From: Ostrinia nubilalis | Lineage: Eukaryota; Arthropoda; Insecta; Lepidoptera; Crambidae | Direction: 5' to 3' | NCBI RefSeq assembly: GCF_963855985.1 | Contig: NC_087104.1 | Span: 14,694,001 to 14,758,000 of the forward strand | Length of the DNA stretch: 64,000 nt | Part shown: positions 17,101 to 63,836 of the stretch, in pieces | How positions within the stretch are numbered: position 1 is the first letter of the stretch | Layout of the letters: every line of letters begins with the position of its first letter | Program-made: the position numbers and the translations under genes | The notes under the pieces: model-generated | What the model was told of the DNA's origin: nothing | Database searches by the model: none | What the model saw: the letters and a program-made list of their open reading frames with translations, nothing else

Positions 17101-20100
17101 AGCGCTGGATCGTTGCAGGTGAATGACCAAAATGATTCGAAACTGGCACACTCAATGCAAAAGTGCAAACATCATCGTTGGTCATCCTGGTAGGCGGCGT
17201 GCATAGCTCTTAGAACTGAGATGGCTTTTGGGGCCGAAAAGCTCTCGAATGACCATCACGGACCGGAAAATGTAGTATAGGCACTTAGGTAGGCCTTCCA
17301 CTCTCGGTGGGCCGACGATCTCGCGAAAAGCGCAGACCAGTCGTTTTGGAAATCCATGGAGGAGGCCATTGTCCAGCATTGGAGGACATTAGGTTTAATG
17401 AAACGGAAGCCATGAAAGTCAAGCTACTCTCTTCTATAAACCCCCACACCATGTGTGCCCAGTTGCCCACACATAAAATATAGAAAAGTACGGTAGGTAG
17501 GAATAAAACTATCCCCATCACGACTTTTTCGTACTCTTAATAGAGAGCAGCTGTCCTCGACCCAACGTGAGCTGAAGAAGATGACGGATGAGTACGCGGA
17601 GACGGTGCCTCGGCGAGAGCACGACAGCCTGACGGCGCAGTTCCACGACGCGACCAAACAGACGAATGCTTTGAAAGCTGAACTGCAAACTATTCACGAC
17701 ACGTATAAACGTGTGCTGGGTGAGTTTTAGAGATAATAAGACAGACAGATCAGATCTTCGACCAGAAGCTGCGTCTTTCGATCATCTGATTGATATCTGA
17801 TATAGGTTCTACTTACTTAGACCAAAATTGCTAACTTACAAAAATATTCATGTTAACAATGGCTAGAAAATGATCAATGGGGAAAGATTTGTCAACAGCA
17901 TTGAAAAAGAGCGTAGAAGAGGAGCTAGTTGAAGTCAAAGAAAGATGTAGCGAGCTGGAGCGTGCTGGCACGCCGCGCCCACAGTGGGAGCTTTGCGCCG
18001 ACTTTATCGGCGGGGGACGAGACAGGTAAGGAAAAGGAAGAAGACCACAAGGTCAAGCAGCCATTTTTTGCTCAATATTCATAGCACCTACCACTACCGG
18101 GATAACTTAACTAGGTTTTATCGACAGTAAAATCGCAGATGCTTTTTTGCTCTAGATTTCATTCATCGGCATTATACCATAACAAAAAGATTACTTACAC
18201 TTAGGTGGTGGCAGCTGGCAAGCGGACTATCATCACGGGATATCCTTCGCGTGTTGCTGAAAGAACTAGGACCAGCAGCAGAGAGCGAACAACTGGAACA
18301 CTTCGATGGCCTTGTAAGCTAAAAATGTCCAACTAATAGCTATTCAACGCTTGAAAAGAACTACCTACCCAGATTTTTTTTCTGACTTTTTAGGGTATGG
18401 ACCCCATGATACCGCCATACTTGCGCTACGAAGGCAAAGTCCGTAACTTGCGTCTGTCTCGGCGGGAGATCAGCGTGATCATAAACGACATCTGGCTCGG
18501 AAAACTGGAGCATGGTCAGGGGTTTTCCATGCAAGACTATGTCACCAAGTATTTTGAAGACAGGCAAGACGAAAAACCTAACAATTCTTTTTCAAGAATA
18601 AACTTTGTTACTTAACATCAAGAATATGTGTCCAGGTACCAACAGCCCTCAGTCCGCGCCGAATGGGCGTACAACCTGTGCGCCGGCGCAGAGCAGATGC
18701 TGGACGAGCCGCAGGTCAAGCTGTTCTGGGGCGTGGTGCACGGCCACCTCAGCGAGCACATCTACCTGAGCCACCGGCGGCAGTGGCAGGCGCTTAGGGA
18801 CCACTTGTATCGGCAGAGCAAGGATAAGGAGGTATTTACACAAAAGTATATTTTATGTAGTGGTAAAATGATCTTCTTTCTTCAACCTTTTCTCCAGGGG
18901 CGTAAGCTTAACTATAGTGGCAGGACTGGCAAAATGCCACGCACCTCTCGCGAATCGCGATGCTTCAGGGCGACGGTCCTGGAGCCCCTCTGAAAAATAC
19001 CTAGAAAACCCCTAGATACGCACAGTATTTGCCAGTATTTGCCACGGGCCTCGGATGGTTTTACTACGCCACATGCTTATCTCTTCTAGGAATCGAGCCT
19101 GAATGAAGATGTAGAGAGTTGAATTCTACTACTAAACTCTCTTTACTATGCAGCTGTCAGGCTGAAACTAAATAAAATCTGAAACTACCCTTCGCTTTCA
19201 ACAGACCGTAACCCTAGAGGAGTTTGAGAAAGTGTCCAAGTCGGTGTTCCCGCTGAAGAGCGACGTAGACATCAAGAACATGGTGGACGTGGTCCGCAAG
19301 CAACTCAAGCTCAAGATCAACTGCAACGAGGTCAACTTGGACAAGCTGTTCCAAGAGGTGATACTTAAGTAGATCAATTGATTTTGTTCATCAGAGATAA
19401 AAGCTCATCATCACGTTACCTGGATACAAATTAAAATTACGCAGAGTTTTTCGGAGCAGGTAACTTTGTGGGGTAACTCTCGTCTCTCATACATTCCTGA
19501 GCTTAGTAGGTAATTAAGATTTATTTAAACCGTATAACGTGACCTTGATCTAATCTCGTTGCTATGGTTGTGCCATATAAGTATGTGATTGCTATCAATT
19601 TTATTCGTTTCTACTTATCTTTATCGAAAAATCTATATCTCAACTAACTGGCTGCATGATGTCTATGCATGCATGTGAGTACTTAGTGGTGCGGAAAGTA
19701 GGTACATTAGATGCATCACTAGATCCGCCTCCCTACGGATGCACCGTCTTTGTGGTAAAAAAACTAATTTTGATTAAAGAACGAAGAAGGCTTCGACCGC
19801 TTGGAGCTGGCACGCGAGCTGTACCGGCAACGGCAGCTGGCACAGGACAAGTACATCCGCGAGGTGGTGGCCGAGCTGGGCGGCCGCCACGCCGCCGCCA
19901 AGCCGGTGACGACTGAACAGCTCAAGCGGGCCTTCGCCATCGTCGACCCCGCCATAGGTAACGTGCCCAGGAGCGATTCTTGTTCATAGGTAACTCGGAA
20001 TTAATAGATGCAGCATGCAGGCACGCCGTCGCCCTAGCCTTAACCATGGTCCAGCTCAAGCGAGCTTTCGCTATTGTCAACCCCACCATAGGTAACGTAC

Positions 20101-20778
20101 CCAGGAGCGATTCTTGTCCATAGGTAACTCGGAATTAATAGATGCAGCGTGCAGGCACGCCGTCGCCCTAGCCTTAACAATGGTCCAGCTCAAGCGAGCT
20201 TTCGACACTTTTAATTTACAAATTAAAGCGCGTCCAGTGACAAAGCGCTATTGTCCACCCCGCCATAGGTAGGACTGGGTGGACGCTCTAAGTGGCGAGT
20301 GACTGTCGTGCAACAAAAAAATTGATGCAGCAGGCATGCCAACTCCAAACCTGTGGCGACAGAACAGCTGACGAGGACTTTCGCTATCGTAGATCCCGCT
20401 ACTGGTAGGACTATAGGAGGACTGAGCGATTTTCGTGATAAACTTAGAGGACTTACATGAAGCAGGCACGCCGCCGCCAAAACCGTGGTGCAACAAGACC
20501 AACTCATAAACTCAAACCTTCGCTTCATAGATCCCGCCGTAAAATCGTCCCTCTATTCAGCTAACAGTTTAATGTGTGCCGACCGTATCAAAGTTAAATA
20601 AAATTACCTTTTCCCAGACCACATCCGCATGGAGCGCTACGTGCGTTGGGCCTTCGGCTCCGGCGCGGACGCGGCGCCGCTGCCGCTGCGGTCCGTGGCC
20701 GCGCGCCTGGCTGCCGGCGACGTCGAGCGCGCCGGAGCCCGCTACCGGGACAAGCGACGCGTTAACAAGATCCATTGA
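14177..20778 (+). CDS. TSNAXIP1: TSNAXIP1-like coiled-coil protein, 12 exons, 616 aa
   Basis: Exons: 14177-14302, 14386-14520, 16147-16284, 16937-17118, 17544-17719, 17899-18025, 18205-18313, 18394-18563, 18636-18831, 19205-19357, 19780-19957, 20618-20778. All phases join and give 616 codons plus TGA. Exons 1-3 (QLYHDEVLEEIFREAFDTV, YSRILEKIKEAYESA) fit the N-terminal domain of translin-associated factor X-interacting protein 1. Exons 3-6 are coiled coil, and exons 9-12 carry helical, EF-hand-like segments (TLEEFEKVSKSVFPLKSDVD). Human TSNAXIP1 has a similar length and is linked to testis and cilia; the insect role is unknown. Intron 8 has a GC donor. The exon 6 acceptor is uncertain (17898 preferred; an AG just upstream is in frame too). 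Exon 11 has tandem copies of its 3' end in the next intron. A likely AATAAA is at 20810. Confidence 0.75.
14872..15867 (+). CDS. Homocysteine S-methyltransferase, intronless, nested in an intron
   Basis: The 331-aa protein transfers a methyl group to homocysteine to make methionine, probably from S-methylmethionine or S-adenosylmethionine as in the MmuM/HMT family; the cytosol is expected. The N-terminus has LVLDGGFSSQL, the substrate loop of the (beta-alpha)8 barrel. Zinc ligands are visible: Cys238 in IGANCCSPK, and Cys305-Cys306 in YVGGCCRTY. Length is normal for the family, and the start ATG at 14872 is followed at once by conserved sequence. The gene lies wholly within intron 2 of the TSNAXIP1-like gene on the same strand. 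An AATAAA overlaps the stop codon (15866-15871) and another lies near 16105. The uninterrupted frame suggests an old retrocopy or a lineage that lost its introns; it looks functional. Confidence 0.94.
   Translation: MACTSTLDLGYPKVLVLDGGFSSQLSVHVGKTADGDPLWSARYLQTHPEAVYNTHLDFLRAGADCISTNTYQASVGGFVKHLGVTPEQGLALIRSAVELAKRARDTYLEECLRKGTSTRTPLVIGSVGPYGAHLHDGSEYDGHYADRTSPETIREWHTPRIKALIDAGVDLLAIETIPCQIEAEVLVEMLKEYPNIKAWLSFSVTDETSVAHGENFQMAAKKCWDLNPNQLVAIGANCCSPKLIAKLFEGINNDRPHAPIPLITYPNSGEKYNVQLGWIEGDICDRIDSFVPGWLDLGVSYVGGCCRTYAADITHIRTQVDRWLNQKTINV
17281..17402 (+). mobile_element. RTE-type LINE 3' end, degraded
   Basis: In intron 4 of the TSNAXIP1-like gene, the tract from CACTCTCGGTGGGCCGACGA to AGCATTGGAGGACATT follows the C-terminal coding sequence of lepidopteran RTE reverse transcriptases (consensus ending EAYVQQWTS). 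Substitutions and an indel break the frame. Confidence 0.6.
19918..20540 (+). repeat. 134-bp tandem copies of exon 11 3' end plus splice donor, decaying
   Basis: CAGCTCAAGCG, the exon 11 end and the donor ATAG/GTAACG recur at a 134-bp period: CTCAAG is at 19921 (authentic exon), 20055 and 20189. The second copy keeps exon end, donor and about 90 bp of intron; the third breaks off after GCTTTCGA. Two more diverged copies of the exon end are visible near 20340-20405 and 20460-20535. Only the first copy continues the upstream exon, so the others are intronic duplicates. Confidence 0.85.
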
Positions 20779-21280: not shown

Positions 21281-23468
21281 ATGGCAGATATCATTGAAAA
21301 CGAAGAACTAGACAAAGACACTGTTGACTCTAAAACTTTGAAACAGTTATTCAATAAAAATTATGATTTATTAGCAGAAACAACTGTGTCTGAGAAAAAA
21401 TCTTATGTTAATAAAATACACGGGACCAAGTAAGTAAATCCTAAGATAAACATATCACAATACTATCAGTCCCAAACAGTAATCATTAGTCAAGACATAT
21501 TTCTACCCTAAATGAACGTAAACTGTGTAACATAATTAGGTTATAAAGTATGTTTATCTTTAAACTCGAGAACAGTGCCCTATTCATTCAATCGTATTTT
21601 CAGGTCCCTAAAACTAGCAGTGAGTGTGTCAAACAACAATGGGATAGAAGTGTATGAACAGGGCAATAACACCCTCAAGCAGGTGTGTCGGCTTAGCGGG
21701 CATCAAAAACCTGTGACCGATGTTCTATTCAGTTCCCGGGAGGACCACATGCTGTACTCATCTGGTTTAGACGGATTAGTAAAGCTTTGGGACTTGAGAG
21801 CCAGTGGGAGCTGTGTCCAGGAATATAAAGGTAAAGATCATGCACAACACAAATTATTTAGTTTAAAAATTCAGTTGCTATTGATAGAATGGTAAGTTCC
21901 ATTATGATAAATGGTTATTAAACAGTTGTACTCTTCTGAGATGCAATATTTTTATCATAGGTTCTTAGATCATAATAATAAAATAGTTAACAATATAATA
22001 AACACTTCTAGATGAAGAAGAACAAATAATTCGTCCCTATGAATGCATGGACGTGTCTTGCAATGGGCGCGTGATATGTGCAGGCAGTCAACTAGTGGAG
22101 GATGATGCATACCTTGTATTCTGGGACTCCCGAATGCCAAAACCTTTAGGGGGATATTGGAACTCTCATACAGACGATATTACACAAGTAAGTTAGCCAC
22201 CAGTATACAATATAGAAAATATCCCACCTTTTACATGAATATTATGTAAAATGGATAATTCTTTTCATTTACATTTCCAGGTCAAATTCCACAAAGAGAA
22301 GACAGAAATCCTAGCATCAGGGTCAATAGATGGACTTTTGAATATATTTAATATCTTGGAACAGACAGAAGATGATGCTCTGATATATTCCTTAAATGTA
22401 GAAAATTCAGTAGAGAAAATATCCTGGTTGGACAGCAGAAGAGCTGCCTGCACTACACAGTCCAATGACCTGCAGCTGTGGGACACAGAGACTGGAGATC
22501 AACTCAAGAGTTACAGTAGAGATAAAATTTCTAGAAGTATAAAGGTAACACAAATATTTGCTATCATATTAAATCTTAAATACCTAAGCCAAACTTCATT
22601 ATTATCACTTATGTATTTTTAATTTATCATTGAATCATTTCTTTTTCAGAGGAGTAAAGATGATGATTGTTATTTAGTGGATATTTTCACATCAATTGAT
22701 GACACACCTGTACTATTGGCTGGCTCAAATGCTGGAGATGGGTAAGTAATAAATAAAATTTATCAAAAAATATTTCAATTGATGAGACTGTTTATAAAAG
22801 TAATATTTTATCTCTTTTCAGGGATGTACTAAGGTCAATTACGATAGCAGAAAAGAAATTGCAGCCATGTACAAATTTTACACAAAACAAACAAATTGTG
22901 AGGTGCTGTTGGTACGAAAAAGACGTAAGTATGAATCACCTGACGTTTGATTTACAATATCGTCAAGAATATAATACAGGACGAGTCGTAAATGAGGGAG
23001 TTCTCCTATGAAGTAAATAAAATTGTTTTTTACCTTCTAATATGCTGGAAAAATCTATTGCACTGTGTCGCCCGTCCAACGGTGCAATGCGGTAGCGCGG
23101 CTGAGTGAGACTAGCACTACTACTAGCAGGCAATATTCCACATCGCTTCCAGTCACCCTGTATATGGAATGGAAGTGATAAGCAATAGGGAAAAGATGAA
23201 TCTAATATGGCTGTATTATGCACAGTGGATGCACTACTAGCCGGCAATATCCACATCGCCTCCAGTCACCCTGTGTATCGAATGAAGTATTAAATGGATG
23301 GGAAATGGTATGATGAGTTTTATGTGGTCCTTCCAGAGAGACATCCTGGTGACGGCGGGTGAGGGCGGACGCGTGAGCGTTTGGGCCGGCGCGGCGGGGC
23401 AGGCGGCGCCCAAGCGACTCAGCGGCCCGCTAGACAGGCTGCACGTCAACAGATACAAGCCCTATTAG
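21281..23468 (+). CDS. WDR89: WD repeat-containing protein 89 (WDR89), 7 exons, 380 aa
   Basis: Exons: 21281-21429, 21604-21830, 22012-22187, 22281-22544, 22650-22741, 22822-22924, 23337-23468; phases join to 380 codons plus TAG. WD units are seen with LDGLVKLWDLRA, AYLVFWDSRMPK, GSIDGLLNIFN, NDLQLWDTETGD and GGRVSVWAGAAG, giving a beta-propeller. Stretches such as ICAGSQLVEDDAYL, SHTDDITQVKFH and the spacing of blades match WDR89, which is 387 aa in human. Its function is poorly known; it is expected to be a soluble scaffold. The final exon is far more GC-rich than the others. An AATAAA lies at 23695-23700. The gene converges on CYHR1/ZFTRAF1. Confidence 0.9.
23111..23290. repeat. Imperfect 118-bp direct repeat in WDR89 intron 6
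   Basis: Two copies of a roughly 60-bp segment sharing GGCAATATTCCACATCGC-type sequence and CCAGTCACCCTGT begin near 23111 and 23229. They are diverged by several substitutions and a small indel. They lie 47-110 bp upstream of the acceptor of the GC-rich last exon. Confidence 0.55.
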
Positions 23469-25137: not shown

Positions 25138-28100
25138 TCACTTCGTCGCCAGGAACATTATGAGGCTGCAAACAAACATACATTTGTTTAAACCTAATAT
25201 TTTAACCGAAAGTTATGATGACTAGATAGGCAGTCTTTCAAAATGAGGTAAATAGCTTGCTTTCAAAACAATAGGTTATTCAATTATCAAACAATTAGTG
25301 ACATCATAGGTCTTTACTCTTTAGTAAATATTTTATGCTCTTTTACACCTGTTTTGAGGCGGTAACTGCACGGTTACGGTTTGATTTAATAGTGCCTCTT
25401 TAAAATCTAAAGCCTCGTATCCAGTTGAGCATGCTCAGGCGCAGGAGCGGCTCATTCAGTCGAGCCACTCGTGCGGAGACGCCCGAGCACGCACGGCTCG
25501 CATCTCGTTAAGTCGCTCAAGTGGAGACTCGAGCGACTTAACCAAATGAGTTGCTCATTCGCCTGAGCATGCTCAAGTGAATTCAGACTTCAGGGGAATC
25601 GCGTTTGATGTCACATCAATTGATCAGAAATGGGTACAACAATCGGTACATGATGGCGACACTGTAGTCGTTTAAATTTCAAAACAGCGTGGGACGTCCA
25701 TCCACAAGGTGGACCGACGCCATCGTAAAGGTAGCAGGGAAGCGCTGGACGCAGGCCGCTACCAATCGATCAACATGGAAAGCATTGGGGGAGGCCTATG
25801 TTCAGCAGTGGACGTCCTGTGGCTGAACTGATGAGCAACCTCACCGGAACTGTATGGCCTTGTTGAGCAGCAGGCGGTTGGCGTCGGCGGGGTCGGCGAG
25901 CGGCAGCGGCAGCGGCGGCGCGTCGGGCGCGTCGTCGCTGAAGGCGTGTGTTTGTACTGTGCGGGAATCGAACCCGCTACCTCCGGAATAGTAGTCCGTT
26001 TCGTACACCAAACGGCCGACTACATATTGAACAACAGGTGTGCAATGAGCGCGGAACTCACCGGAACTGTATGGCCTTGTTGAGCAGCAGACGGTTGGCG
26101 TCGGCGGGGTCGGCGAGCGGCAGCGGCAGCGGCGGCGCGTCGGGCGCGTCGTCGCTGAAGGCGTGTGTTTGTACTGTGCGGGAATCGAACCCGCTACCTC
26201 CGGAATAGTAGTCCGTTTCGTACACCAAACGGCCGACTACATATTGAACAACAGGTGTGCAATGAGCGCGGAACTCACCGGAACTGTATGGCCTTGTTGA
26301 GCAGCAGACGGTTGGCGTCGGCGGGGTCGGCGAGCGGCAGCGGCAGCGGCGGCGCGTCGGGCGCGTCGTCGCTGAAGGCGTGTGTTTGTACTGTGCGGGA
26401 ATCGAACCCGCTACCTCCGGAATAGTAGTCCGTTTCGTACACCAAACGGCCGACTACATATTGAACAACAGGTGTGCAATGAGCGCGGAACTCACCGGAA
26501 CTGTATGGCCTTGTTGAGCAGCAGACGGTTGGCGTCGGCGGGGTCGGCGAGCGGCAGCGGCAGCGGCGGCGCGTCGGGCGCGTCGTCGCTGAAGGCGTAT
26601 GTTTGTACTGTGCGGGAATCGAACCCGCTACCTTCGGAAAGTAGTCCGTTTCGAACCACTACACCAAACGGCCGTCCAAATATTGAACAACAGGTGTGCA
26701 ATGAGCGCGGAACTCACCGGAACTGTATGGCCTTGTTGAGCAGCAGGCGGTTGGCGTCGGCGGGGTCGGCGAGCGGCAGCGGCAGCGGCGGCGCGTCGGG
26801 CGCGTCGTCGCTGAAGGCGTGCGCGAGCGCGCGCGGCGTGCAGGCCGCCTCGCCGTACGGGCCGCGCAGCCACAGCCACTGCAGCGGCAGCGGGCTGCTC
26901 GGCTTGCTCTTCAGGATTATCTGCAAGGCACAAACGACAGCGTGGGTTTGGGCATCTCTGTAAAGCCTGGTCCGTGAGCACGTAGAATCCCGTCCAATGA
27001 CCCCAAGCTACCCATCCTTATCGCTCGCGCGTAATTATATTGCTGTCGCGACTGTGCGACGGGCGCCCGCAGTGAGTGTGCGAGCGCGACAGCAACATAA
27101 TTACGCGCGAGCGATAGGGATGGGTAGCTTGGGGTCATTGGACGGGATTCTACGTGCTCACGGACCAGGCTTTAGAAGTGAATCCTATCTTGGCTTGCCC
27201 TTTATGATTATCTGCAAGGTTCAACAATCAAACGATGACGTTGTGACCGAGGCTCTGGTTGGTCATATTGATCGACTGTAGAAGTGAATCCTATCTAGGC
27301 TTGCTCTTGAACATTATCTGCGAGTTACAAGCGACGTGGGTTACCGAGGTTCTGGTCATCTCTATCGACTGTAAGAGTTAATCCTATCTAGGCTTGCCCT
27401 TTAGGATTATCTACAAGGTTTGATTGTTGATAAAACGACGACGTTGTAACCGAGGCTCTGGTTGGTCATATAGATCGACTGTAGAAGTGAATCCTATCTA
27501 GGCTTGCTCTTGAGGATTATCTGCAAGACACAAACGACGTGGGTTACCGAGGCTCTGGTCGTCTCTATCGACTGTAGAAGTGAATCCTATCTAGGCTTGC
27601 CCTTTAGGATTATCTGCAAGGTTTGATTGTTGATCAAACGACGACGTTGTGACCGAGGCTCTGGTTGGTCATATAGATCTATCGACTGTAGGAGTGAATC
27701 CTATCTAGGCTTGCTCTTGAGGATTATCTGCAAGGCACAAATGACGAGGTGGATTGGGCGGCCTTTATCGTTTCACCATCATCATCAGGACATCCACTGC
27801 TGAACGTAGACCTCCCCCGATGATTTCCATATCGCCCGGTTGGTAGCGACCTGCACGTAGTGTCGTCTGTCCACTTGTGAGTCTTTATCGCTTGAAGAGT
27901 GAATCCTGAAGGTCGAGTAATCCTGGAGTCTATCCCCAGGACTACTCACTTCTTGGACGCAGGACCTTTTACTAGTTAGGTTTCGTTTCATTGGAGCTCG
28001 CACTGTATAGTTCCAAAATACTGAACTGTCCTATCCATGACATTGACAGCGGGGCGCCACCGTCAATACCGGATCGCTGGTTCCGATTTTTACCATGTTG

Positions 28101-31100
28101 GAAACCATATAGTTGAACGATGGTAGCGCCCCCCTGTCATTGAGTTTGGTGGGACAGTTCAGCGTGGGTCATCTATAGCAAGGAGCTGTACAAAAGATGC
28201 AGTGGTGGGAAGAAAGAAAAACTTCCATGTAAAATTGAATACAGGCAGAACACGTAGTTAACGTTATTGACGAATCGAAACGTAGACAGACAGAAACACT
28301 TTATTGCACACCACACAAAATTAGAAACTGTTAGGTAAGGCAAAGTGTAGGTAAACTATTCATTTCATTGTCTACAATGCCAGTGCCAGCAGACAGCGTG
28401 ACCAATGACCCGCACTGTCACAATTCTAACCTAAACATAACTGCAACTGCTTTTTTTTGGGTAAATTACGTAAGTATTAACTATTCGTTAGATTTCGTAA
28501 TGACTAAAAATAAATAGTAATTTTTGGTATGCAAAAAACGGTTATGTATTAACTTTATGGTTAGGATCGCCACAATAGTCCAGCGATCGACAGAGATGCT
28601 AAAATCGGTGTGCTATGGTCGCTTTACTTCGTAACTATGCAAGCCTTTAAATATCACCTTTAAAAATAAATTCAAGAAAAGAGTAACAAGACGAGTCTGT
28701 CTTTGTAGGAAGTAAATACTGGAATAAGGACAAAATTGTCATTAAGGCGATTAGAGTCCTCAATGACCTTGGGCGTTTGACCTTCACGCCGCGAGCAACA
28801 CCCGCGTACCCCGCACCAAAAACTCCGATTTGACACCGATCAAAAATACACAGGCATAGGTAGATACAGAATAGAAGCTCTTTCTTCATACATTACTGCC
28901 TATTATTTTAAACTTAAATTGATGAACCTCGATGTCGGTGTCATTTAACTCAGGCGTAAAGGTATTTAATAAAAATAACAAAATCCATGAACATTTTGTA
29001 CGGGATAAAATTTTATTTTATTTTTCATAAATTTTCTAATGCTTTTGTCGGTTCAGTCGTTCTCGAAATTTGAACAAACCCGACTTTATTACAAGCTTTT
29101 ATTTAGCTTGCAATTTATGATGTATGTAGGTAATTACATAAATGTTTGTTCGGGTGGAATCTTGCAAGCTGAATTAGTTGCAACTTGCAAGCTGAATTAG
29201 TTGCAAGCTGAATTAGTTAGACCAACTTCCTGACGACAACTAGGCTAGATGACAAAATTTCAATTATTTGTCCGCCAGACAGATAATTAGAAAATATTAG
29301 ACTCAAATTTTTTATTTTCTTTCATAATTAAATAATAACAGTGCTACATCGAGTTGAAATGGCGCGATACGCCACGCTTGAGTAGAATTTTTACTCAAAT
29401 GTGACGTCACGCGACATTTCAACTCAATATAATACTGTAATTATTCGATTATGGAAAAAATTAAAAAATGTGAGTCTAATATTTTCTAATTATCTGTCTG
29501 ACGGACTAAATAGAATTTCGATTTCATTACCCAGTCATCATCCCTATTGGAACGCATTAGTACCTACCTAGTATTGTCTATGGCCTAAAAAAGCAAATGT
29601 TTCTGCTTTTGTCTATCACTTATGAAGAATAAACTGAAAATGTATTTGTCTTTTTATTAGAAATCCTTCATCAATTGATTGAGTTCAAATTTCGGATATA
29701 CATGTAATTCAATGCAATATTGTGATGACATGGAGCTGATCTGATGGTAGAGCTGGAATGCCAGTGGCCCCATAGCAACTCCGGGAATAAACGATTCCAT
29801 CGAGTTTAGGCTCGTTTGATTTGTATTTATTTATTATTATACCTAAATAATTTCATTACAATTTTCTAAAAATGCACAAAAACTTAAAAATCTTGAAAAC
29901 GGTGATATTTTTACTGGGGTCAAAATTGGACGTTAGGGAGACCATGGCGAGGCCTATCGATGGTTGAAGGGTTATCCATTGTGTTTGGGACACCCTGTAT
30001 AAGCAAGTACCTAATGTTATGTAAGTAGGTACGCTACTTTGAAAATCATGAGTCTTCAATTCTCTAAGGGAAACTGCAGGGTCTGATGATGGAGCTGGAA
30101 TGTGGCCATAGGAATAGGCTAGTTTCTTTAAAAAATACTTTTGGTCCGTCAATTTTACATTATCAAAAAATATTGGACACAGGATATTTTTATTTTTCAA
30201 TTAAACAAGTATAATTACGAAGATAATGATGCGATGAAATTCCGCGTGACGACACAAATCGTCACATTTTTAAGCATGCCTTGACGTCATGTGCCTCATC
30301 TTCTGAACTTTGGTGCGCTTCATCTCTTTAAATTTTCATAAGTTTAAAAAAGTGAAAAATACATTTAGAGATTTTTTTTGGTAAGTTCACCGACGGTCTT
30401 ATTCAAACTCTTGCTACTTTCTTGCTTTATCCACGAAACATCCCTATTCTTCGAAATTATTACGATCTACAAACGGAAAATCTCTGCTACTACGCCGCAG
30501 TAAATTCCCCATCATAAATAAAAAGATTTTTTTTAAAACAAGCTCTTACTACGTTTCATGGTTTGGTAATTTAGGGAAGTTTATTTGCACTTAACATGAA
30601 AAATATGGTATCAATGTACTGAGTACCTATGCACCTTCAGTGGCAACAACAAGGTCTACTGGGTACCTATAGTCTACTAAAGGCATGAAATAGATTAATT
30701 TCACTAAAAATTAAAACCAACTCCAAAACGAATCACCAAAAGGTAGGACACCGACACCGACTCCGAAAATGGCTAATTTTGTAATCAGTATCCAAATTTT
30801 TAATAAGCTCTATAGAACAATTCAATACCACTTTATCTTAATTTTTTTTAATGTGACAGGAGGCAAACGAGCAAACGGATCACCTGTTGGTAAATGATTA
30901 CCGTCACCCATAGACACCCGCAGACCCAGGGGCGTTACAGGTGTTATTTTTAATTGTGGTATTTTCGCGAAGAAACATATTTAAAATCTAATTCTAATAA
31001 GTATGAAAAATATAAATTGTTTTCTTCACGTAAATCGATTAAGTTACAGATTCTGACTAGCTCCTAATTTGGATACTGATTGCAAAGGCCTAGTAAATAA

Positions 31101-34100
31101 ATAACGTAATAATTTTTCTACTTGTATTTATCTAGTGCAGTTGTTTTGGAGTCAATTATAGTTTTTTACACTAATAGATTCTATTCAGGTAGAAAATAGC
31201 GTCTGAGCGCGTCATAATTCAATTGTATTGTCTGACTGCACGTACTCTATGAACAATTCTGACATAAAATCTATTGTCGAACAAAAGCTGGGTTGCACCA
31301 TCTTACTTCAACTTTGACAAGCGTCAAAAGTCTGTCTAACTCCATACAAAAAACACCGGTTATCGCCAAAGCTACGGTCAAAGTTAGGTCACGTCAGGTG
31401 GTGCAACTAAGCCAAAGAAAAAAATCATTTTGATCGCTAATGTCAGTTTGTAGCGAGTGACACAACCTCCCCGTCTGAAGGCCAGCGGCCGACTGCCGCC
31501 CGCACCCCGCGAAGGCCCCCTCAACAGCAAAACGTTCGGAATTTATTAAAAGTAAAATTTATGAATGAAAGTAATGTTCGATTGAAAAACGCAACGTGTC
31601 ATTTAAAGATTAAAGAATTCCCAATCTATTCGTGCAAAAATCTTTTAAATTAACATAGCCGTTTTGGAGGAGTAGGGAATTTAAGTAAAAAATCGATGTC
31701 CCGTATTTATTTTTTTAATCCAAAACAAAGAGACGTAGCGAAGATTCAAACGTCACAAATGTAGTCCTTGAACTGTTGTATAACATATATTTTTTTCAAC
31801 TATTTCTGTCCAGCAGTAAAAGAGGAGTAGGCTTTACAAAATGCCCATTTGGCGCGGATTGAGGACACTAATCGCCTTAACAGAATCGTACTGACCTGGT
31901 AAGTGATCTCTCGCTCGGAGCTCTGCGTGGGGTCGCGCTGGTTTTTGTTGACGAAGGCCTTGACCACCCACTGGTGGCCGAAGGCCGTGAAGCGCGAGGT
32001 CTCGTAGTACAGCTTGTGCACGTACTCCTCGGTGCGGTACGGCTTTAGCTGCAGGTCTGCAAGGATAAGAGCAAGCTTAGATACAGGCGTACTCGTACTC
32101 CTCACGCAATCCACACATAATATAATTTCTACAAAATCTTCACTCACTCTTTTAGAGTATGTGCCATGAACGATGAAGGCCATAAAATACTGTTGAACTA
32201 TAGCTGCTATAAAATACTGTTCGTTCGTGTTTAAGCCAAATGACGTCCACAGCTGGACAAAGACCTCCCCCAAAGATTCCCATATCGACCGATCCTACGC
32301 TGCCCTCATCCAGGTACTTCAGGGATAGAAGACGTAGTGTGGGCAGGCCAGGCTCTCCACTAGGTGGACCGACGATCTGGTTGAAGGTCGCGGGAAGTTG
32401 TTCGATGCAGGTTACAGCTAGAAATACCGTTGAAGACCTAAAATTATCAAAATTTGGGTCAGACTAAAACAGATCAGCTGATTTTTTAGTGATATAGGTA
32501 CACCTTGTAGAGATTCTGTAACACTAAGGCATAACAGGAGAATCGTCCGATTGATATTGTAATTTGAGTCTGCTCTGCACTAGGCTTTTGATCTAACTCT
32601 ATCAATATCATTATAATTGAATAAAAGGAAAGTGGACCAGCCAACGCAAACGTGACGAAAGTCGTTGAGTGTTGACCTTTAAACTGATTTTGTTTAGCTA
32701 TTGACACAGAAAGAGAAAGTTGATAGTCTGATTCTGAACTAATATGTACAGTCGTTAAATTGCATCTTGTTACTTTTATCATCGCGTAAGACGCAGTTGT
32801 AGATAAGAATATCAAAAGTCACTCAGTGATTCACCCACTCACTATTCTATCTCTATGCATTTTAATAGCCTATTCATGTATAACTACATAAACAGATAAA
32901 GGTCAGAATCAATTAGCGTTAATTGGTGGCAACATTTAGTAGGTAATTACGAATTTTGAATACTCGAAGTTCATGTAGTAATTTCTGCCTTTTAGCATTT
33001 CTTCTTTTTATAAATTCGAGGAATGTAAACCTAAGCTAATATTGGTTTTTTTTTCTGGATTGGCGAGTGTAGTCTCTCATCAACAGATGTCAGAAAGCTC
33101 TTACCAACGAACACACCACAGTTGCCGTCAAGCCCCGAGATCTGTTGACAGATCTTTTCCTGCACCATGGCCGCCGCGGTTCTCGGCCAGCCGCGCGGCG
33201 ACGGGCTCTCGCTGAACTCTTGAACATTGAACATACGATCATATAGGGCCACTTCCGATTCCCATTCATTTATTATAAACCAGTCATTTAAAAAAATAAT
33301 TTTGAAATCATTTCTCCAATATTTTTCAATGGTAACACTGATATTCATGCAGATGTTAATTCGGATGCATCAATTTTGAAATTTTACCCTCAACCAAAAT
33401 TTTAAATCTTGAAATTGCCCTTTACGAACGCATGCTCAATGTCAAGGTCTCCCTTCATGCTCTACATATACCTAACTGGTGGCACGGAATGGAAGTCCAC
33501 TTTGACCACTACTACCACAAACACTCACCGTTGTTTCGGGACATTCTGGTACTTGTTACAAAGTTACAAACATATGGGATGAAAGTTTTAGATGTGATGA
33601 TCACTTACCGTTAAATGCAATCTTCTTGCACCAGAGTTGCTGGGATCAGTAGGCAGGATACTTAAAGGAGGATTAACTCATTTTCACCCCTGTTGATGGC
33701 TGGGAAAATGCTAGAGGAGGCTTCTATCCAGCCATGGAGGTCTTTAGGTCAATCGGTGCCTGTGACAAACCTCTCACAGCGAGGTTTGTCAAACAGTCGG
33801 TTTTCGGCTGCGAAGTGAACTCACCATTGAAGGTAATCTTCTTGTAGAACAACAGATCAAGGCATGGAAGTCTTTCGGCTGCAAAGTAGACTCACCATTG
33901 AAGGTGATCTTCTTGTAGAACAACAGGTCAAGGCATGGAAGTCTTTCGGCTGCAAAGTAGACTCACCATTGAAGGTGATCTTCTTGTAGAACAACAGGTC
34001 AAGGCATGGAAGTCTTTCGGCTGCAAAGTAGACTCACCATTGAAGGTGATCTTCTTGTAGAACAATAGGTCAAGGCATGGAAGTCTTTCGGCTGCAAAGT

Positions 34101-37100
34101 AGACTCACCATTGAAGGTGATCTTCTTGTAGAACAACAGGTCAAGGCATGGAGGTCTTTCGGCTGCAAAGTAGACTCACCATTGAAGGTGATCTTCTCAT
34201 ACGAAAGCAGGTCGAGCAGCTGCGTGTAGACGGCGGCGTGGTCCTTGGCGCGGCGCTCGCGCTCGGCCAGCACGTCGGCCACGTCGGCGGCGGGCTTGCG
34301 CGGGTGCGCGCACGCCGCCTCGTGCGCGCCCGCCTCGTGCGCCGCGCCGCGCCACGGGCAGCCGATGCACTCGTAGCGGCAACCAGTCAGCCTGCACACC
34401 GACGCTAGTTCAGTACCAGTGGCAACCGATACACGAGAAGGGGCATGTCGTGGAGCCTATCACAAGCTATAGGCAGGCTAAACTCTAATCTCTTAGCGTG
34501 GATTAGCGGTGAGGTGCGCTGAATTTTGTCAGTGTGTGCGTGCGCGCCGCATACGTATTGGCGCGCGCTCACATACAAACCGCGCTCGGTGCGTTTCTAT
34601 GAAGATGACCTACTCATTTGTATTTACTCTGCTTTAGGCCAGCAGTTCTTAAGAGCGTTTTAAATATGAGAGGTTCGTTCAATAGTAAGTGGAAAACCCC
34701 ACGTTATTTTTGAAGACCCTATGTAATTACGTAGATAATTTCCTTTACCCCCACTATTCCGAACTGTTAATAAATTAAGATCAAATTCCTCGTCGCCACC
34801 TGTTAATAGCTTAGTTTGTTATTAATATGTATTATCTGATAACAATGTTAGGCAAATCGCTTTTGTTAGTAATCGCAGATGAGTTTGGTTCGCGTCGCGG
34901 CAGGCGTTAGTAGCGGCACGCACCTGCGGAAGGCGCGGCGCGCGCGCGGCGGCGGCGCGGACACGAGGTACGCACGCCGCAACGCGCCGGCGCACAGCGC
35001 GTACAGCGCCGCCGCCACGCGAACCAAACTCTCCACGCAGCGCCTCCGCAGAGGCGCCGACACTACGATTTGCGCGAACTTGTAATCCCTGAGGAGAACG
35101 GAACTGTCAGTCGACTGCGGGAGGCACTGATACCCATTGTAAGAATCAGCGGGGCCCATCTAAAATCACGAAACCGATATCAAGTGTCTTTTCAAATTAC
35201 AATCTGCCGGCCAATAAAATCTCTAGCAAATGTGAGACAACTCCTCGCAAGGATATCGAGATAAAAAAAAGATGCTTTTATTTGCTATCTTTAGCCCAAA
35301 AAAATATTTTTAACCTACCTAAATCGATAACGTCATGAGATAAATAATGTACAAAGTTCAGTACAATTTAACCGCCGCTTCTTATCGCTCCGTAAACTTT
35401 ACTGTTTTTGCTTTATCTGCCTTTGTTTTAAATAAAACTGCATACTTCGCTTGATGTGCCTTTGTTTAAATAAAGATGCATTTAAAAACAGGATGTCAAG
35501 CACATAAAATTCTTCGGTGCCCTAGTTGAGATGCGGCATGGAGAAATGGTAGCAGAGTAAAAAAGATACTTTTTTCTTAGAAACGTAACTGTTTTCAGGA
35601 TATGAAAAGTTATCTAAATCTGGCTCGAAGGACCATTTTGCAGGATAGCAAAACTTTTGGTTTAAGCAATCAATACAAGGTTGTGCTCCCGGGGCTGGAA
35701 TGTTCGGAGGCGTAGAGGTAAAGGCTTATTTCGCATCGATGTGGGTAAAGGTTCGGCCAAACCAACGCGATCAGCCGGCGTGCAGCAATGGCGATCAACG
35801 CATTTAAGTCTGGTCGCCATCGCTGCACGCTGGATGATCGCGTGTGATCGCGTTGGTTTGGTCAAACCTTTAAGCATATCGCACTGCTGAAGAAAACCCA
35901 ACTCACCTATCCTCGCAAGTTTTGTCCTCGTGATGCTGCAGCGAGTGGCGCGGGAACATCTGCGTGCAGTACTTGCACTCGGACGGCAGCTCCGAGACCG
36001 TCTTCTCGACAGCCAGGTTGCGCGACGCCAGCGTCTTGGAGATGTCCACGCGGCAGTTGGGGCACGTGGCCGACTCGTCGCGCAGGCGCGCGTCCGCCAG
36101 CAAGTGATTGAAGCACGGGGCGCACATAAGGTGGCCATTGCTACACTGAAATCGGAAACAACGTTCAGACGACGCAACGGTGGCGTGTCCTCGATGACGC
36201 TTGGACACATATTAACATTCTGTGATCAAAGTGACACTAAAACTCTAACCCTGCTTACGAATTACATTCTAATTAACAAAATACTGGAAATATCAACAGT
36301 AACTCAATTGAAGCGTTTAGATGACTGCAAGGACTAAAAAACATTAAATTAACTGCAAAATAGGTGATGTGACTGCATTAAAATTGTTTAGGTAAATGTT
36401 GATATGTGTCAGTGCATCACTCTGTAAGACAAAGACAACGTTATGGTGTGTGCGGTCTACCTCAGCCCCTCATCGGTTGTGGCTCCTGTAAACAAACTAC
36501 ACAATATGCTGGAACAGAAAGAAATCATATTTAATGGCATGTGAAGAGAAATGTTTATGCTTTATGTTCAAAACATGCAGTTATCATTGCTTCATCTTCT
36601 TTTAAGTGCAAACCTTTAAATTAACTCAAATTACTGTAGGTACTCTTTCTGGTATTAAGTGCTTTGATAAATATTTGTGATACTAAATTTTAACATTTAA
36701 AATTATGTATTAAGGATGAAAAAAAGTATATTATCTGACATCTAAACCTATAATGGAATATGTAATTAATGATTGAAATATTAATTGGCAAAGTGATAAC
36801 TGAATTTGAGAAATGTTCTTTGTTCTTTATAGTTAGGAAAGGGAGTTTGAGGGGAGATCTGAATAAAGAAAGAACTACATCTCTGAAACATTTCTTTATT
36901 AACGCGAAATGTTACAAGAGTCATACAGGCTATATTAAATTACTACAAATCATACAAACTAGGCTATCCTATACAATATCACAGGTGCTTAGTACAATGC
37001 TCCAATGTCGACAATACATAAGTATCAGTACACAATAGATCACTATATCATCCACATACATTACAAGTAGGCAATAGACACAGTTCCTACTACACAGTAC

Positions 37101-39305: not shown

Positions 39306-39738
39306 TTTGGGAATTTCTTGCGACTCAGTCTCGGTTTATTGGTTATTCACTAATAATATTATTGAATTTTTATCAGAAATCAAAATTCCGTAAAATTGGT
39401 ACACTGACAACATAGTCTATGACTGACAACCACCAGTGTTGCCAGTTGGGTCTAGTCAGAAATTACCAGAAATATAAAAAAAAGTTACCTTTTTGAATAA
39501 AAAGTAACCGATGTTATGTAAGGTAACCGGTGCGGAGCGATGATTGTGTAAGGTTGTTCCTGGATGGAAAATGAATACAATTGATAATCTAAATTCGAAA
39601 AGTGACCAGTCGTATAAAAACGTTTCATGGATTTGCGTTTTATTATCGAAAAACATTCGCTAAAACTCATTTTTTTTAACAAATAATAAATCAAATTAAG
39701 TTTAAATGCACTTTATGACATAATTTTTAAATTGTCAC
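39306..39738. other. Upstream region of SAP30BP; no gene
   Basis: AT-rich intergenic DNA between SAP30BP and a hAT insertion. The two minus-strand frames here lack recognisable domains. Confidence 0.4.
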
Positions 39739-45448: not shown

Positions 45449-45903
45449 ATTGTTACAGTTAGAAAAACAAAAACTAATAATCTAACCAATTCACGACGAA
45501 TGACAAGCAATTTTCTAAAAATGCAAAATCAAGCAAGCTCAAATCTGACATATAAACTGTCATCTGTAACTGTCAATTACACTGACATTTTTACTGTTTT
45601 ATTGGCTTTTTGGAAACAAAGACATTGTAGTTTAGACCACCTTTTATCTAATTAAAGTAGGATTTTTAACTAATTATTTATTTTTAGAAATAAATTGACT
45701 AATTAATAACAACATGATCATGTTCTTAGTAAATGCGAAATAATTGTAAATAAATCTTTTGACGAAACCTGCGTTGTTGTAGAACGAAAACGACGATCTG
45801 CTGTCATGTCATTGTCATCCATCTGTCAATTTTGCAATCTCCGAAAGCTGACGTGTAAAAATATTTGTTGAAAAGCCGGAAAATACCAAAGGAATCTTTT
45901 AAA
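45449..45903. promoter_or_regulatory. Putative bidirectional promoter, PSMB1 / DAD1
   Basis: The 455-bp segment between the divergent start codons of two housekeeping genes contains no transposon ends and several TGACA/TGTCA motifs. No TATA box is convincing. Promoter function is inferred from layout. Confidence 0.45.
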
Positions 45904-60200: not shown

Positions 60201-62520
60201 ATTAGGCAACATTTGTTGATAAACTGTTGACTAGTGTGAAACAAGTTTACCTAAACACAGGTTTCTGAAACTTGGCCGTCCACACTTGCTCTCCACTCAT
60301 AGCGGGGAGCACGGCAACATGTATCATAAACAATGTTTCATCACCTATGTTTATGGACTGTTTACAGAGATGATGAAACATTATGAACAGTTTATAAACA
60401 AATGTTGCCTAATAGCCCAGTAGAATTAGATTTTAAATCGGAAATAATTCCTACAAAAGATTTTATTGCTTTAATGACTTCATTGGTTCCCATTAAGACT
60501 CTCCTAGGTTTTCGACTTCGTCGGAGTTGTGCTTAAGTGGTGGGGGTCCCTGAAAGGGACGCTTTTTAGGTTTTCCGGTTATACCGCGTAAAGGACTTAC
60601 CCTATCGAAAAGTGGTCTTCCTGACGGTTGAAGGGCATTTAATCCTGCATTAAATAAGACCAAATCCATATGTTTTGGACAAACCGTTCTCGTGCAAATG
60701 TTCGGCAAAGTAGAAAATATGTCTCCACGTCCAATAGCTCGTAACCCGTAGGCTCCCAAGCCTTGTAAAGGGTCGCCTTAACCAGCGTATCCCTGTCAAG
60801 GCTCACGAGTTGGATTCGCTTATCCTTGTTCGTCCCAGCCGTTCCTTAACTGCGGTTGCTGCACCTCTGGCGTGGCCGCCAGCAGCCCGCCGGGGACTGA
60901 CCTGCGAGCGGCGCGGGCGCGGCGGCGGCGGGCGGGGCGGGCGGCGGCGGCAGGCGGCCGGCCAGGATGTTGTCGCCGGGGAGCGCGGGCGAGCGCGTGG
61001 CCGCCAGCAGCCCGCCGGGGACTGACCTGCGAGCGGCGCGGGCGCGGCGGCGGCGGGCGGGGCGGGCGGCGGCGGCAGGCGGCCGGCCAGGATGTTGTCG
61101 CCGGGGAGCGCGGGCGAGCGCGTGGCCGCCAGCAGCCCGCCGGGGACTGACCTGCGAGCGGCGCGGGCGCGGCGGCGGCGGGCGGGGCGGGCGGCGGCGG
61201 CAGGCGGCCGGCCAGGATGTTGTCGACGGTGAGCGCGGGCGAGCGCGTGGCCGCCAGCAGCCCGCCGGGGACTGACCTGCGAGCGGCGCGGGCGCGGCGG
61301 CGGCGGGCGGGGCGGGCGGCGGCGGCAGGCGGCCGGCCAGGATGTTGTCGACGGTGAGCGCGGGCGAGCGCGTGGCCGCCAGCAGCCCGCCGGGGACTGA
61401 CCTGCGAGCGGCGCGGGCGCGGCGGCGGCGGGCGGGGCGGGCGGCGGCGGCAGGCGGCCGGCCAGGATGTTGTCGACGGTGAGCGCGGGCGAGCGCGTGG
61501 CCGCCAGCAGCCCGCCGGGGACTGACCTGCGAGCGGCGCGGGCGCGGCGGCGGCGGGCGGGGCGGGCGGCGGCGGCAGGCGGCCGGCCAGGATGTTGTCG
61601 CCGGGGAGCGCGGGCGAGCGCGTGGCCGCCAGCAGCCCGCCGGGGACTGACCTGCGAGCGGCGCGGGCGCGGCGGCGGCGGGCGGGGCGGGCGGCGGCGG
61701 CAGGCGGCCGGCCAGGATGTTGTCGACGGTGAGCGCGGGCGAGCGCGTGGCCGCCAGCAGCCCGCCGGGGACTGACCTGCGAGCGGCGCGGGCGCGGCGG
61801 CGGCGGGCGGGGCGGGCGGCGGCGGCAGGCGGCCGGCCAGGATGTTGTCGACGGTGAGCGCGGGCGAGCGCGCGGCCGCCAGCAGCCCGCCGGGGACTGA
61901 CCTGCGAGCGGCGCGGGCGCGGCGGCGGCGGGCGGGGCGGGCGGCGGCGGCAGGCGGCCGGCCAGGATGTTGTCGACGGTGAGCGCGGGCGAGCGCGTGG
62001 CCGCCAGCTCGGCCGCCAGCACGCCGGCGGGGTACTGCGGGAACATGGCCTGCACCTGCGGGGGACACGAGCGTTAGACACTAGCGGATGTGGGTACTTC
62101 GGCGGGTGAAATCAAAATGGTTTAGAACCACACGCGCAGTCACCCAGCCAGCACTGGGTGAACGCCAGTTATGTTCACATACATTATAATTTACCTACGC
62201 CACACTAGCATTCGCGCCCGCTCTGAATAGGCCTTACGATTTTTTTTTTATGTGACAGGAGGCTAACGAGCAGACGGATCACCTGATGGTAAGTGATTAC
62301 CGTCGCCCATAGAATTGCAAGCAAAGGTATGCAAAGAATGTCAATATATCTATGTATCGTGGCCTTAACAGCAACAATATCGATAGCACTATGTGTCTAT
62401 GATGTACTAAGTGTCGTACCTGGCGGACCATGGCGTCAAGCTGCGAGGCGCCGGGCGGGTCCATGCGCACGCGCGTCACCTCCACCGAGAACGAGGGCAG
62501 CCACGACACGTAGCGCGAGC
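57270..62520 (-). CDS. AMFR: AMFR/gp78-like protein, C-terminal five exons (CUE and Ube2g2-binding region)
   Basis: Exons in transcript order: 62520-62420, 62055-61902, 59803-59719, 59052-58948, 57303-57270; phases join. AMFR is the ER membrane E3 ligase gp78 of ER-associated degradation. The first exon reads SRYVSWLPSFSVEVTR, then QLDAMVRQ; the second gives the ubiquitin-binding CUE domain (MFPQYPAGVLAAELAATRS, LTVDNILAGRLPPPP). The fourth gives an FPRDAAEREAALRQRKERLL helix, then AAARHRYL, like the Ube2g2-binding region. The membrane segments and RING are not in this part and would lie upstream, beyond the window if the gene is ordinary. The frame ends at TGA 57270-57272, although an in-frame protein-like tail continues to 57192. 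The CUE exon donor is tandemly duplicated, and a hAT and a Helitron lie in introns. Confidence 0.83.
57512..58788. mobile_element. Non-autonomous hAT element, 1277 bp, with 8-bp target duplication
   Basis: It starts TAGTGATGGGCCGACTA and ends TAGTCGGCCCATCTCTA, and is flanked by GTAATAAT at 57504-57511 and 58789-58796. The termini consist of many GACTAGTCGGC-like palindromic repeats, analogous to but different from those of the hAT at 39739. No transposase is recognised. It lies in the last intron of the AMFR-like gene. Confidence 0.92.
59867..60030. mobile_element. MITE in an AMFR intron
   Basis: ATCCACACCGGATGCGTTATG and GTCAAGTCAAAGTGAACGCA on the left pair with TGCGTTCATTTTGACCTGAC and CAGCATCCAGTGTGG on the right with several mismatches. 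It is the same family as 49960-50175. Confidence 0.65.
60201..60413. mobile_element. MITE with 27-bp inverted termini
   Basis: ATTAGGCAACATTTGTTGAT (60201) pairs with the complement of the right end ...AACAAATGTTGCCTAAT (60413) with one mismatch in the first 27 bp. Inner TGTTTCATCA/TGATGAAACA also pairs. Confidence 0.75.
60490..60840 (-). pseudogene. Unrecognised coding-like remnant
   Basis: The minus strand reads LDRDTLVKATLYKAWEPTGY then ELLDVETYFLLCRTFARE and WIWSYL, with frame breaks afterwards. Composition looks protein-derived, probably a degraded transposon, but I do not recognise the family. Confidence 0.3.
60872..61901 (-). repeat. 125-bp tandem array of the AMFR CUE exon 3' part and splice donor
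   Basis: GATGTTGTCG recurs at 60967, 61092, 61217, 61342, 61467, 61592, 61717, 61842 and, in the authentic exon, 61967: nine units at exactly 125 bp. Each carries about 100 bp of exon (from the TRSPAL codons through the Pro/Ala-rich stretch), the donor GCAG/GTCAGT and about 25 bp of intron. Two sequence variants alternate: one encodes LTVDNI (as in the exon), the other LPGDNI, in the order P P T T T P T T T along increasing coordinate. Near-identity over 1 kb implies recent amplification or homogenisation. Confidence 0.95.
62249..62315. repeat. Common lepidopteran interspersed repeat fragment
   Basis: TGTGACAGGAGGCTAACGAG then CGGATCACCTGATGG and GATTACCGTCGCCCATAG; same family as 30845-30950. 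Confidence 0.55.
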
Positions 62521-62542: not shown

Positions 62543-62919
62543 TCTAAATATACATATAAAAGGAAAAACTGACTGACATATCAACGCACAGCCAAAACGG
62601 CACTTGAAATTTGGAAGGGACGTAGCTTAGGTACCGTAGAGGTGCACTAAGAAAGGAATTCCCGAAATTCCCACGAGAACGGGAATTAGCGGGAAAATCT
62701 TTTTGTATGAAAAATCTAAACCGCTTAAGTTAGACGCTCGAAATTTGGCATGCAAGTACCTTAGTAAACTTAAAGCTTAGTTACAACAGGATATTGCAAA
62801 ATTCCCACGGGAACGGGAATTAGCGGGAAAATCCTTTTGTATGAAAAATCTAAACCGCGTAAGATAGATGAAGGGGGTAAAACGGGATCCACGCGTACGA
62901 AGTCGCGGGCGGCCGCTAG
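62543..62919 (+). mobile_element. Non-autonomous Helitron close to an AMFR splice acceptor
   Basis: It starts TCTAAATATACATATAAAAG and ends with a CGCGTACGAAGTCGCGGGC hairpin followed by CCGCTAG, with host A before and T after. It contains an internal direct duplication (ACGGGAATTAGCGGGAAAAT at about 62680 and 62812). The left end is 22 bp from the acceptor of the exon starting at 62520. Confidence 0.8.
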
Positions 62920-62984
62920 TTCGTCATATCGTGTCCCAGACAAAAAGATACACGACTCGGCCGAAGGTAACAGCAGCGTCGCCC

Positions 62985-63836
62985 ATGCCACGCCCACGGG
63001 AGGGCTCAGGGCACGCGCCGGTACCGGAGAGGTTCCATTTGATGACGTCGAGCTGCAGCAGCACCAGCACGGACACGGCCAGCAGCGACAGCAGCGCGGC
63101 GCACGCGGCGCACGCGGCTAGCATCGCCCGTGCCGCGCCCGCGGGGCTCAGGGCACGCGCCGGTACCGGAGAGGTTCCATTTGATGACGTCGAGCTGCAG
63201 CAGCACCAGCACGGACACGGCCAGCAGCGACAGCAGCGCGGCGCACGCGGCGCACGCGGCTAGCATCGCCCGTGCCGCGCCCGCGGGGCTCAGGGCACGC
63301 GCCGGTACCGGAGAGGTTCCATTTGATGACGTCGAGCTGCAGCAGCACCAGCACGGACACGGCCAGCAGCGACAGCAGCGCGGCGCACGCGGCGCACGCG
63401 GCTAGCATCGCCCGTGCCGCGCCCGCGGGGCTCAGGGCACGCGCCGGTACCGGAGAGGTTCCATTTGATGACGTCGAGCTGCAGCAGCACCAGCACGGAC
63501 ACGGCCAGCAGCGACAGCAGCGCGGCGCACGCGGCGCACGCGGCTAGCATCGCCCGTGCCGCGCCCGCGGGGCTCAGGGCACGCGCCGGTACCGGAGAGG
63601 TTCCATTTGATGACGTCGAGCTGCAGCAGCACCAGCACGGACACGGCCAGCAGCGACAGCAGCGCGGCGCACGCGGCGCACGCGGCTAGCATCGCCCGTG
63701 CCGCGCCCGCGGGGCTCAGGGCACGCGCCGGTACCGGAGAGGTTCCATTTGATGACGTCGAGCTGCAGCAGCACCAGCACGGACACGGCCAGCAGCGACA
63801 GCAGCGCGGCGCACGCGGCGCACGCGGCTAGCATCG
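62985..63836 (-). repeat. 142-bp tandem array of a signal-anchor-like exon segment
   Basis: ATGACGTCGAG occurs at 63042, 63184, 63326, 63468, 63610 and 63752, six units at exactly 142 bp. On the minus strand each unit reads MLAACAACAALLSLLAVSV, then LVLLQLDVIKWNLS, followed by CTCTCCG/GTACCG, a possible donor. Units 2-6 appear identical. Because 142 is not a multiple of three, the hydrophobic frame does not run from unit to unit. Confidence 0.93.
63731..63830 (-). CDS. Putative signal-anchor first exon, gene uncertain
   Basis: The 5'-most array unit starts ATG at about 63830. It encodes a 33-residue, strongly hydrophobic leader (about 20 Ala/Leu/Val-rich residues, then QLDVIKWNLS), ending at a GT in phase 1. 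The next downstream exon on this strand (62520) enters in the matching phase and would give WNLS-GSRYVSW, fused to the AMFR-like CUE part. AT-rich sequence upstream (63860-64000) looks like a 5' UTR or promoter, and a 4-codon upstream ORF (ATG GGC CGA TGC TAG) overlaps the start. The donor (GTACCG) is weak. It could equally be a nested gene or non-coding GC-rich repeat. Confidence 0.3.

Follow-up and report, generated by a model that had tools for sequence, protein, structure and literature searches.

Why should tandem repeats in one stretch of moth DNA lie across the ends of coding exons, and what becomes of splicing where they do? The question is raised by a 64-kb stretch of the Ostrinia nubilalis genome (contig NC_087104.1 of RefSeq assembly GCF_963855985.1, positions 14,694,001 to 14,758,000; hereafter the window, numbered from its first letter), in which a TSNAXIP1-like gene, CYHR1 (ZTRAF1), and AMFR all carry such repeats. 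We ran Tandem Repeats Finder (TRF) on the window, merged overlapping rows, and kept units of at least 60 bp, which yielded eight arrays. Four arrays contain an exon end, at 19957, 26718, 34180, and 61902, and all four ends are donors, spread over the three genes. These arrays are tandem repeats over an exon-intron boundary, the type described as boundary minisatellites (PMC2812944). We consider it probable that tandem duplications arose across exon edges, were tolerated as the exon-proximal splice site remained intact, and were then expanded and homogenized.

To fix the junctions, exons were read in three frames, splice motif and phase set the boundaries, and the spliced products were then translated. 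The TSNAXIP1-like, CYHR1, and partial AMFR products are without internal stops, and the product of a further, WDR89-like gene contains a single stop, located shortly before the point where it probably starts. We then took the terminal 60 nt on each side of an exon, aligned them to the adjoining intron, and compared the scores with those for 100 dinucleotide shuffles of that intron, covering 46 junction sides and not counting two CYHR1 cassette exons as separate junctions. Five of the 46 sides scored above every shuffle, namely, the four donors and the acceptor of CYHR1 exon 5 (z-scores in Table 1); no other tested side did so, the nearest three having z of 2.6 to 3.0.

A sequence-only reading of the window had reported six arrays, and TRF recovered all of them at the same places and with the same periods. 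Its description of the affected exons as GC-rich also held, as the exon regions are higher in GC than the window overall. Five of the arrays had been counted as boundary arrays: four do span exon donors, but the fifth, on the acceptor side of CYHR1 exon 5, holds only short copies of the acceptor edge (31-48 bp and diverged), does not touch the exon, and is set apart from it by an insert.

Table 1. Exons, arrays, and associated repeats in the window (positions are those of the window)
Feature	Position	Strand	Evidence
Array, 164-bp unit	11396-11723		TRF
TSNAXIP1-like exon, 8th listed in window model; 3' end duplicated	19780..19957	+	Donor ATAG/GTAACG; phase-consistent model
134-bp array, 2.1 copies, over donor 19957	19918..20204	+	TRF; z=14.0 (exon edge against its intron)
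TSNAXIP1-like exon end, two older copies, diverged	20318-20410 and 20455-20545	+	Each 0/1000 shuffles
217-bp array, 4.5 copies, over CYHR1 exon 5 donor	25840..26821	-	TRF; z=28.4
CYHR1 (ZTRAF1) exon 5	26718..26920	-	Donor 26718, acceptor 26920; phase model and orthologues
Inverted-repeat insert (like a miniature inverted-repeat transposable element, MITE) between exon 5 and acceptor-side array	26961..27174	.	Self-BLAST, 88% over 220 columns
203/93-bp array, six short exon 5 acceptor-edge copies	27176..27746	-	TRF; z=6.7
71-bp array, 5.6 copies, over CYHR1 exon 3 donor	33802..34197	-	TRF; z=7.8
CYHR1 exon 3	34180..34391	-	Donor AATG/GTGAGT at 34180; phase model and orthologues
Array, 156-bp unit	51365-51979		TRF
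125-bp array, 9.1 copies, over AMFR CUE exon donor	60870..62008	-	TRF; z=17.3
AMFR CUE-domain exon	61902..62055	-	Donor GCAG/GTCAGT at 61902
142-bp array, 6 copies; signal-anchor-like open reading frame; exon status unsupported	63002..63852	-	TRF

Proteins of related species indicate which donor copy gives the conserved product. In CYHR1, TSNAXIP1-like, and AMFR alike, the exon-proximal donor yields the orthologous protein, as expected of duplications that are neutral to splicing, and most of the other donors would put the reading out of frame or are located past a stop. The TSNAXIP1-like junction, DPAI followed by D/N-H, is found in 29 of 31 TSNAXIP1 relatives, and the protein is 99% identical to O. 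furnacalis record P0121 over the scored part, with at least one substitution. Spliced CYHR1 is identical to O. furnacalis record P0001 over shared residues, with P0001 differing by a 38-residue cassette. Among 12 aligned CYHR1 relatives, the exon 3/4 join is as modeled in 10 (one other has the cassette and one has four extra residues) and the exon 5/6 join is as modeled in 10; the latter join also occurs in 102 of the 120 records listed from 606 matches. The AMFR exon was identified through a Pfam CUE match (E=1.9e-6) and through gp78/AMFR CUE chains of solved structure, the best of them at E=1.6e-8, and a Loxostege AMFR record continues after the CUE segment as in our model. Two cassette exons were seen in CYHR1: one at 33106-33219, near-identical to the 38-residue cassette of the O. 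furnacalis isoform record, and one at 34920-35087, matched by isoform records of other Lepidoptera.

With the proximal site included, frame is kept by 3 of 5 CYHR1 exon 5 donors, 2 of 6 exon 3 donors, and 3 of 9 AMFR donors. Reading on past the donor meets an immediate stop in CYHR1 exon 5 and a stop within the array in both CYHR1 exon 3 and the TSNAXIP1-like gene. That the extra donors are mostly frame-shifting or past stops argues that the proximal donor would normally have to be used. The sequence-only reading had noted that the copies always lie on the intron side of the intact exon; a tandem duplication over a splice site can be viable only in this arrangement, so it is uninformative.

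The composition of the arrays suggests how they may have grown. Within the four donor arrays, copies match at 93-99%, pointing to recent expansion or homogenization. The 217-bp CYHR1 unit consists of about 104 nt of the exon 5 end, about 38 nt of intron, and an extra segment of about 75 bp with a putative B-box like that of a tRNA or short interspersed nuclear element (SINE). This motif is the basis of the SINE-like reading of the insert; the window contained no tRNA by ARAGORN (bacterial code) and no Rfam match at gathering thresholds. Cross-matches among units of different arrays are limited to short GC-rich runs of 11-38 bp, so that the units are gene-specific, and we rejected a common mobile unit behind all arrays. 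Introner-like elements are instances of the same unit inserted in many introns, and the short runs shared here place the arrays outside that class.

The TSNAXIP1-like gene appears to preserve a longer history. Its intron 8, of 660 bp, contains four further copies of the upstream exon end, one of them broken, which match the exon region at 88/118, 63/117, 72/115, and 54/104 positions. Each of the two outermost copies beats all 1000 shuffles. Foreign sequence interrupts the second copy, of which the far part (20228-20290) scores weakly by itself (22/1000 shuffles). These copies read as successive rounds of duplication from one exon, not evenly graded. Upstream in the same gene (16937-20773), model intron 5 has an apparent GC-AG donor at 18563 (CAG/GCAAGA). 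A homocysteine S-methyltransferase open reading frame (ORF) at 14854-15864 precedes the gene, and some relatives' records (e.g., P0122, P0127, and P0131) fuse homocysteine S-methyltransferase and TSNAXIP1-like sequence in one protein, a fusion that may be real or misannotated.

We propose that each donor array probably began when a stretch spanning the end of a coding exon was duplicated in tandem. Splicing would use the copy adjoining the intact exon and leave the mRNA unchanged, which is the likely reason for the persistence of the duplication, and the array would then grow by slippage or unequal exchange. The intact exon, held by purifying selection, could keep seeding copies, and earlier copies would meanwhile decay in the intron; TSNAXIP1-like intron 8, with its copies of differing divergence, may illustrate this. 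The preference for exon ends would be mostly survivorship, duplications inside coding exons having been removed, with a possible bias toward GC-rich DNA.

The AMFR array carries the most copies on a donor. Exon sequence makes up 107 nt of its unit and intron sequence about 18 nt, all nine copies have an identical 9-nt donor site, and unit variants are interspersed along the array. The 18-nt intron part resembles the upstream exon more than any of 1000 shuffles when 12 bp of array overlap are included and is equaled by 28 of 1000 without the overlap; the AMFR donor itself may have been created by duplication. As a separate observation, the region 60803-62111 is open in all three coding-strand frames (ORFs of 417-425 codons), with a stop only past the array, and read-through would yield long novel proteins.

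A second moth lineage probably has a similar array at the same exon. We scanned 120 CYHR1 proteins, those listed of 606 matches, for copies of the window's exon 5 read in other frames and found them in one, Cydia pomonella CYHR1 isoform X1 (P0023), in which the residues after exon 5 match other frames of this exon. A single DNA unit with a period of 145, read in three frames, satisfies 145 of 145 P0023 residues, and 30 shuffled controls reached at most 93; the reconstruction determines 148 of 150 unit positions. The exon part of the unit is about 110 nt in Cydia and about 104 nt in the window, and the exon breakpoints lie within about 7 nt of each other. These data suggest that the CYHR1 exon 5 end has probably been duplicated in tandem in both Tortricidae and Crambidae, and that isoform X1, a database record, probably reflects an array read into a protein annotation. 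To test whether both moths inherited a single array, we compared the intron parts of the two units, which proved dissimilar (1061 of 2000 shuffles did equally well). On this evidence, recurrence is more probable than inheritance.

The same record bears on whether the arrays are maintained by selection, either for the spare splice sites or for the alternative protein ends that they would supply. It agrees with an array being read through into a novel C terminus, and in the window the uniform donor of the nine AMFR copies and the three open frames of that array are in line with such a role. However, recent copies are near-identical throughout, which makes donor conservation uninformative, and the extra donors are mostly frame-shifting or beyond stops, which left the redundant splice sites suggested by the sequence-only reading unsupported. 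Furthermore, the lone CYHR1 protein with other-frame copies has no counterpart among 31 AMFR and 31 TSNAXIP1 relatives at E<=1e-4, in a test to which native-frame copies are invisible. Selection for the arrays is, in our estimation, the least probable of the explanations weighed here. An origin of the arrays as assembly artifacts is also very unlikely. Copy number could be wrong in the 125-bp and 142-bp arrays, which are 99% matched, but misassembly would hardly produce the diverged copies of TSNAXIP1-like intron 8 and of the acceptor-side array or the interspersed AMFR variants, and the protein of an independent species implies an array at CYHR1 exon 5.

How often arrays would fall on junctions by chance depends on how they are placed. 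We considered 48 junctions with the eight TRF arrays, of which four overlap a junction, or with 11 arrays when three weaker tandem duplications found by self-BLAST of the window (6067-6385, 23119-23288, and 62603-62868) are added. With one unit per array, uniform placement gave an expectation of 0.81 (P=0.005 for 8 arrays and P=0.017 for 11), GC-matched placement an expectation of 1.31 (P=0.019 and P=0.043), and placement within genes an expectation of 2.04 (P=0.12 and P=0.29). When whole spans were placed, the expectation was 1.83 uniformly (P=0.084 and P=0.17) and 4.26 in genes (P=0.71 and P=0.88). Barring wholly coding placements gave P=0.019 for 4 of the 5 TRF arrays in gene blocks, P=0.046 for 4 of 6 when 23119 was added, and P=0.14 for 4 of 8 when 23119, 62603, and 63002 were added. 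The excess of arrays at junctions over chance is thus modest, and we call it no more than suggestive, because the window was chosen for the pattern; the statistics are post hoc and concern one window. The sequence-only claim that such placement is unlikely by chance is weakly supported, finding backing in the uniform and GC-matched unit nulls and the two narrower coding-barred sets but not in the other nulls.

These results leave some room for ordinary minisatellites in gene-dense DNA, whose units would often cover an exon edge by chance. The genic and whole-span nulls and the widest coding-barred set agree with this explanation, whereas the uniform and GC-matched unit nulls, the two narrower coding-barred sets, and the own-intron copies at 5 of 46 junction sides speak against it, and we regard chance as an unlikely but by no means negligible account. 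A specific moth process that seeds tandem duplications at exon ends, through repair or slippage at GC/AT transitions or through transcription-linked structures, would instead create a true excess at donors. It would accommodate the low P values under the uniform, GC-matched, and narrowest coding-barred nulls, the fall of all four overlaps on donors, and the 145-bp codling moth unit at the same CYHR1 exon with its nearby breakpoint. The plain genic nulls and the widest set do not favor it, the pattern comes from a single window picked for it, and the dissimilar intron parts of the Cydia and window units also count against a specific seeding process, which we consider decidedly doubtful.

Duplicated splice junctions are known from other systems. 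Human CBS c.844_845ins68 is a 68-bp duplication of an intron/exon junction whose extra part is removed by splicing and which is harmless (PMC2630376). As there, the junction in the moth genes is duplicated and one copy preserves the normal reading frame; in contrast, the moth genes have up to nine copies, mainly of donors, and three genes are affected. The OCT1 variant rs35854239 duplicates 8 bp at a donor and gives 0.3-0.6% aberrant transcript in liver (PMC8137991). It resembles our arrays in that a donor is duplicated and differs in its 8-bp length, its one extra copy, and its mis-splicing in minigenes. In primate segmental duplications, boundary minisatellites modified 27 introns (PMC2812944); their units average about 30 bp in about 4 copies, belong to recently duplicated families, and have RNA support, whereas the moth arrays have units of 71-217 bp and are known from DNA sequence. 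Intron gain by tandem duplication in potato and Drosophila (PMC4974935; PMC2891723) likewise makes renewed use of splice signals, and the potato duplication spans an intron-exon boundary, but the moth copies sit inside one intron, with no new intron between copies shown. A fly survey cited in PMC2891723 counted 624 of 1901 duplications with some exonic sequence but no whole gene.

Several observations weigh against tolerated duplication followed by expansion as a sufficient account. All four direct overlaps are donors, an outcome that would have a chance of 1 in 16 given equal odds for donors and acceptors and for which an extra reason is needed, and the modest excess at junctions persists under some nulls after correction for GC or viability. 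The same CYHR1 exon also seems to carry an array in Cydia pomonella, where the exon breakpoint is close to that in the window. In TSNAXIP1-like intron 8, copies farther from the exon are not steadily less identical to it. If exon edge and array exchanged sequence, homology between unit and exon would be predicted beyond the array edge, and it was weak in four tests (20, 92, 28, and 770 of 1000 shuffles). Finally, the OCT1 duplication mis-splices 38-52% of minigene transcripts and lowers liver expression (PMC8137991), and therefore boundary duplications are not always silent; likewise, 66% of the intron-modifying primate boundary repeats also had repeat-retaining transcripts (PMC2812944).

As far as the literature searched goes, boundary repeats are a kind already known, and what is new is their presence in several unrelated genes within 45 kb with all direct hits on donors, together with a 660-bp intron holding four further exon-end copies and a likely array on one of these exons in a second moth family. 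The listed titles and abstract openings that we examined included no account of arrays of this kind in moths. A more tentative and far-reaching proposal, which we think improbable as a whole, is that donor ends of GC-rich moth exons act as standing seeds from which a recurrent process places tandem copies in the downstream intron, such that introns grow from decayed exon copies, exon edge and array undergo concerted evolution, and occasional array read-through, as in codling moth CYHR1, gives new C termini in three frames. Were the pattern to hold across the genome, donor-spanning duplications hidden from selection by the spliceosome would be a simple source of both intron growth and exon-edge change in moths. 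The arrays also call for caution in annotation, as boundary arrays can be read into proteins, and they raise the question of tandem duplications on 5' versus 3' splice sites and of mutation versus tolerance.

The 142-bp array, like the 125-bp array 99% matched, lies just upstream of the AMFR pre-CUE exon, presumably within an AMFR intron. The sequence-only reading had placed a sixth boundary array here, at a putative leader exon, and we rejected this exon for lack of support. At E<=0.1, the region gave just one match, of 23 residues (E=0.037), against 31 AMFR relatives, and its peptide matched none of 182 retrieved proteins at an E value below 0.44. A possible weak donor in the region would share the phase of the AMFR exon that follows.

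The two remaining arrays, at 11396 and 51365, lie outside the modeled genes in AT-rich sequence, with inverted repeats inside or next to them; they look like a separate class of array. The 156-bp array has an adjoining inverted copy of its unit at 52001-52150, extending the repeat to 51365-52150. Large MITE-like palindromes are found at 29265-29512 and 6552-6696 (83-86% identity to their own reverse complement). An apparently uninterrupted P-element-like transposase ORF with TNP-like RNase H and GTP-binding insertion domains occupies 47403-49616. Single, apparently uninterrupted ORFs also stand beside multiexon neighbors, encoding an HCNGP-like protein (38445-39335), a TRAPPC11-like Foie-gras/Gryzun protein (41139-44507), and a proteasome subunit (44753-45481).

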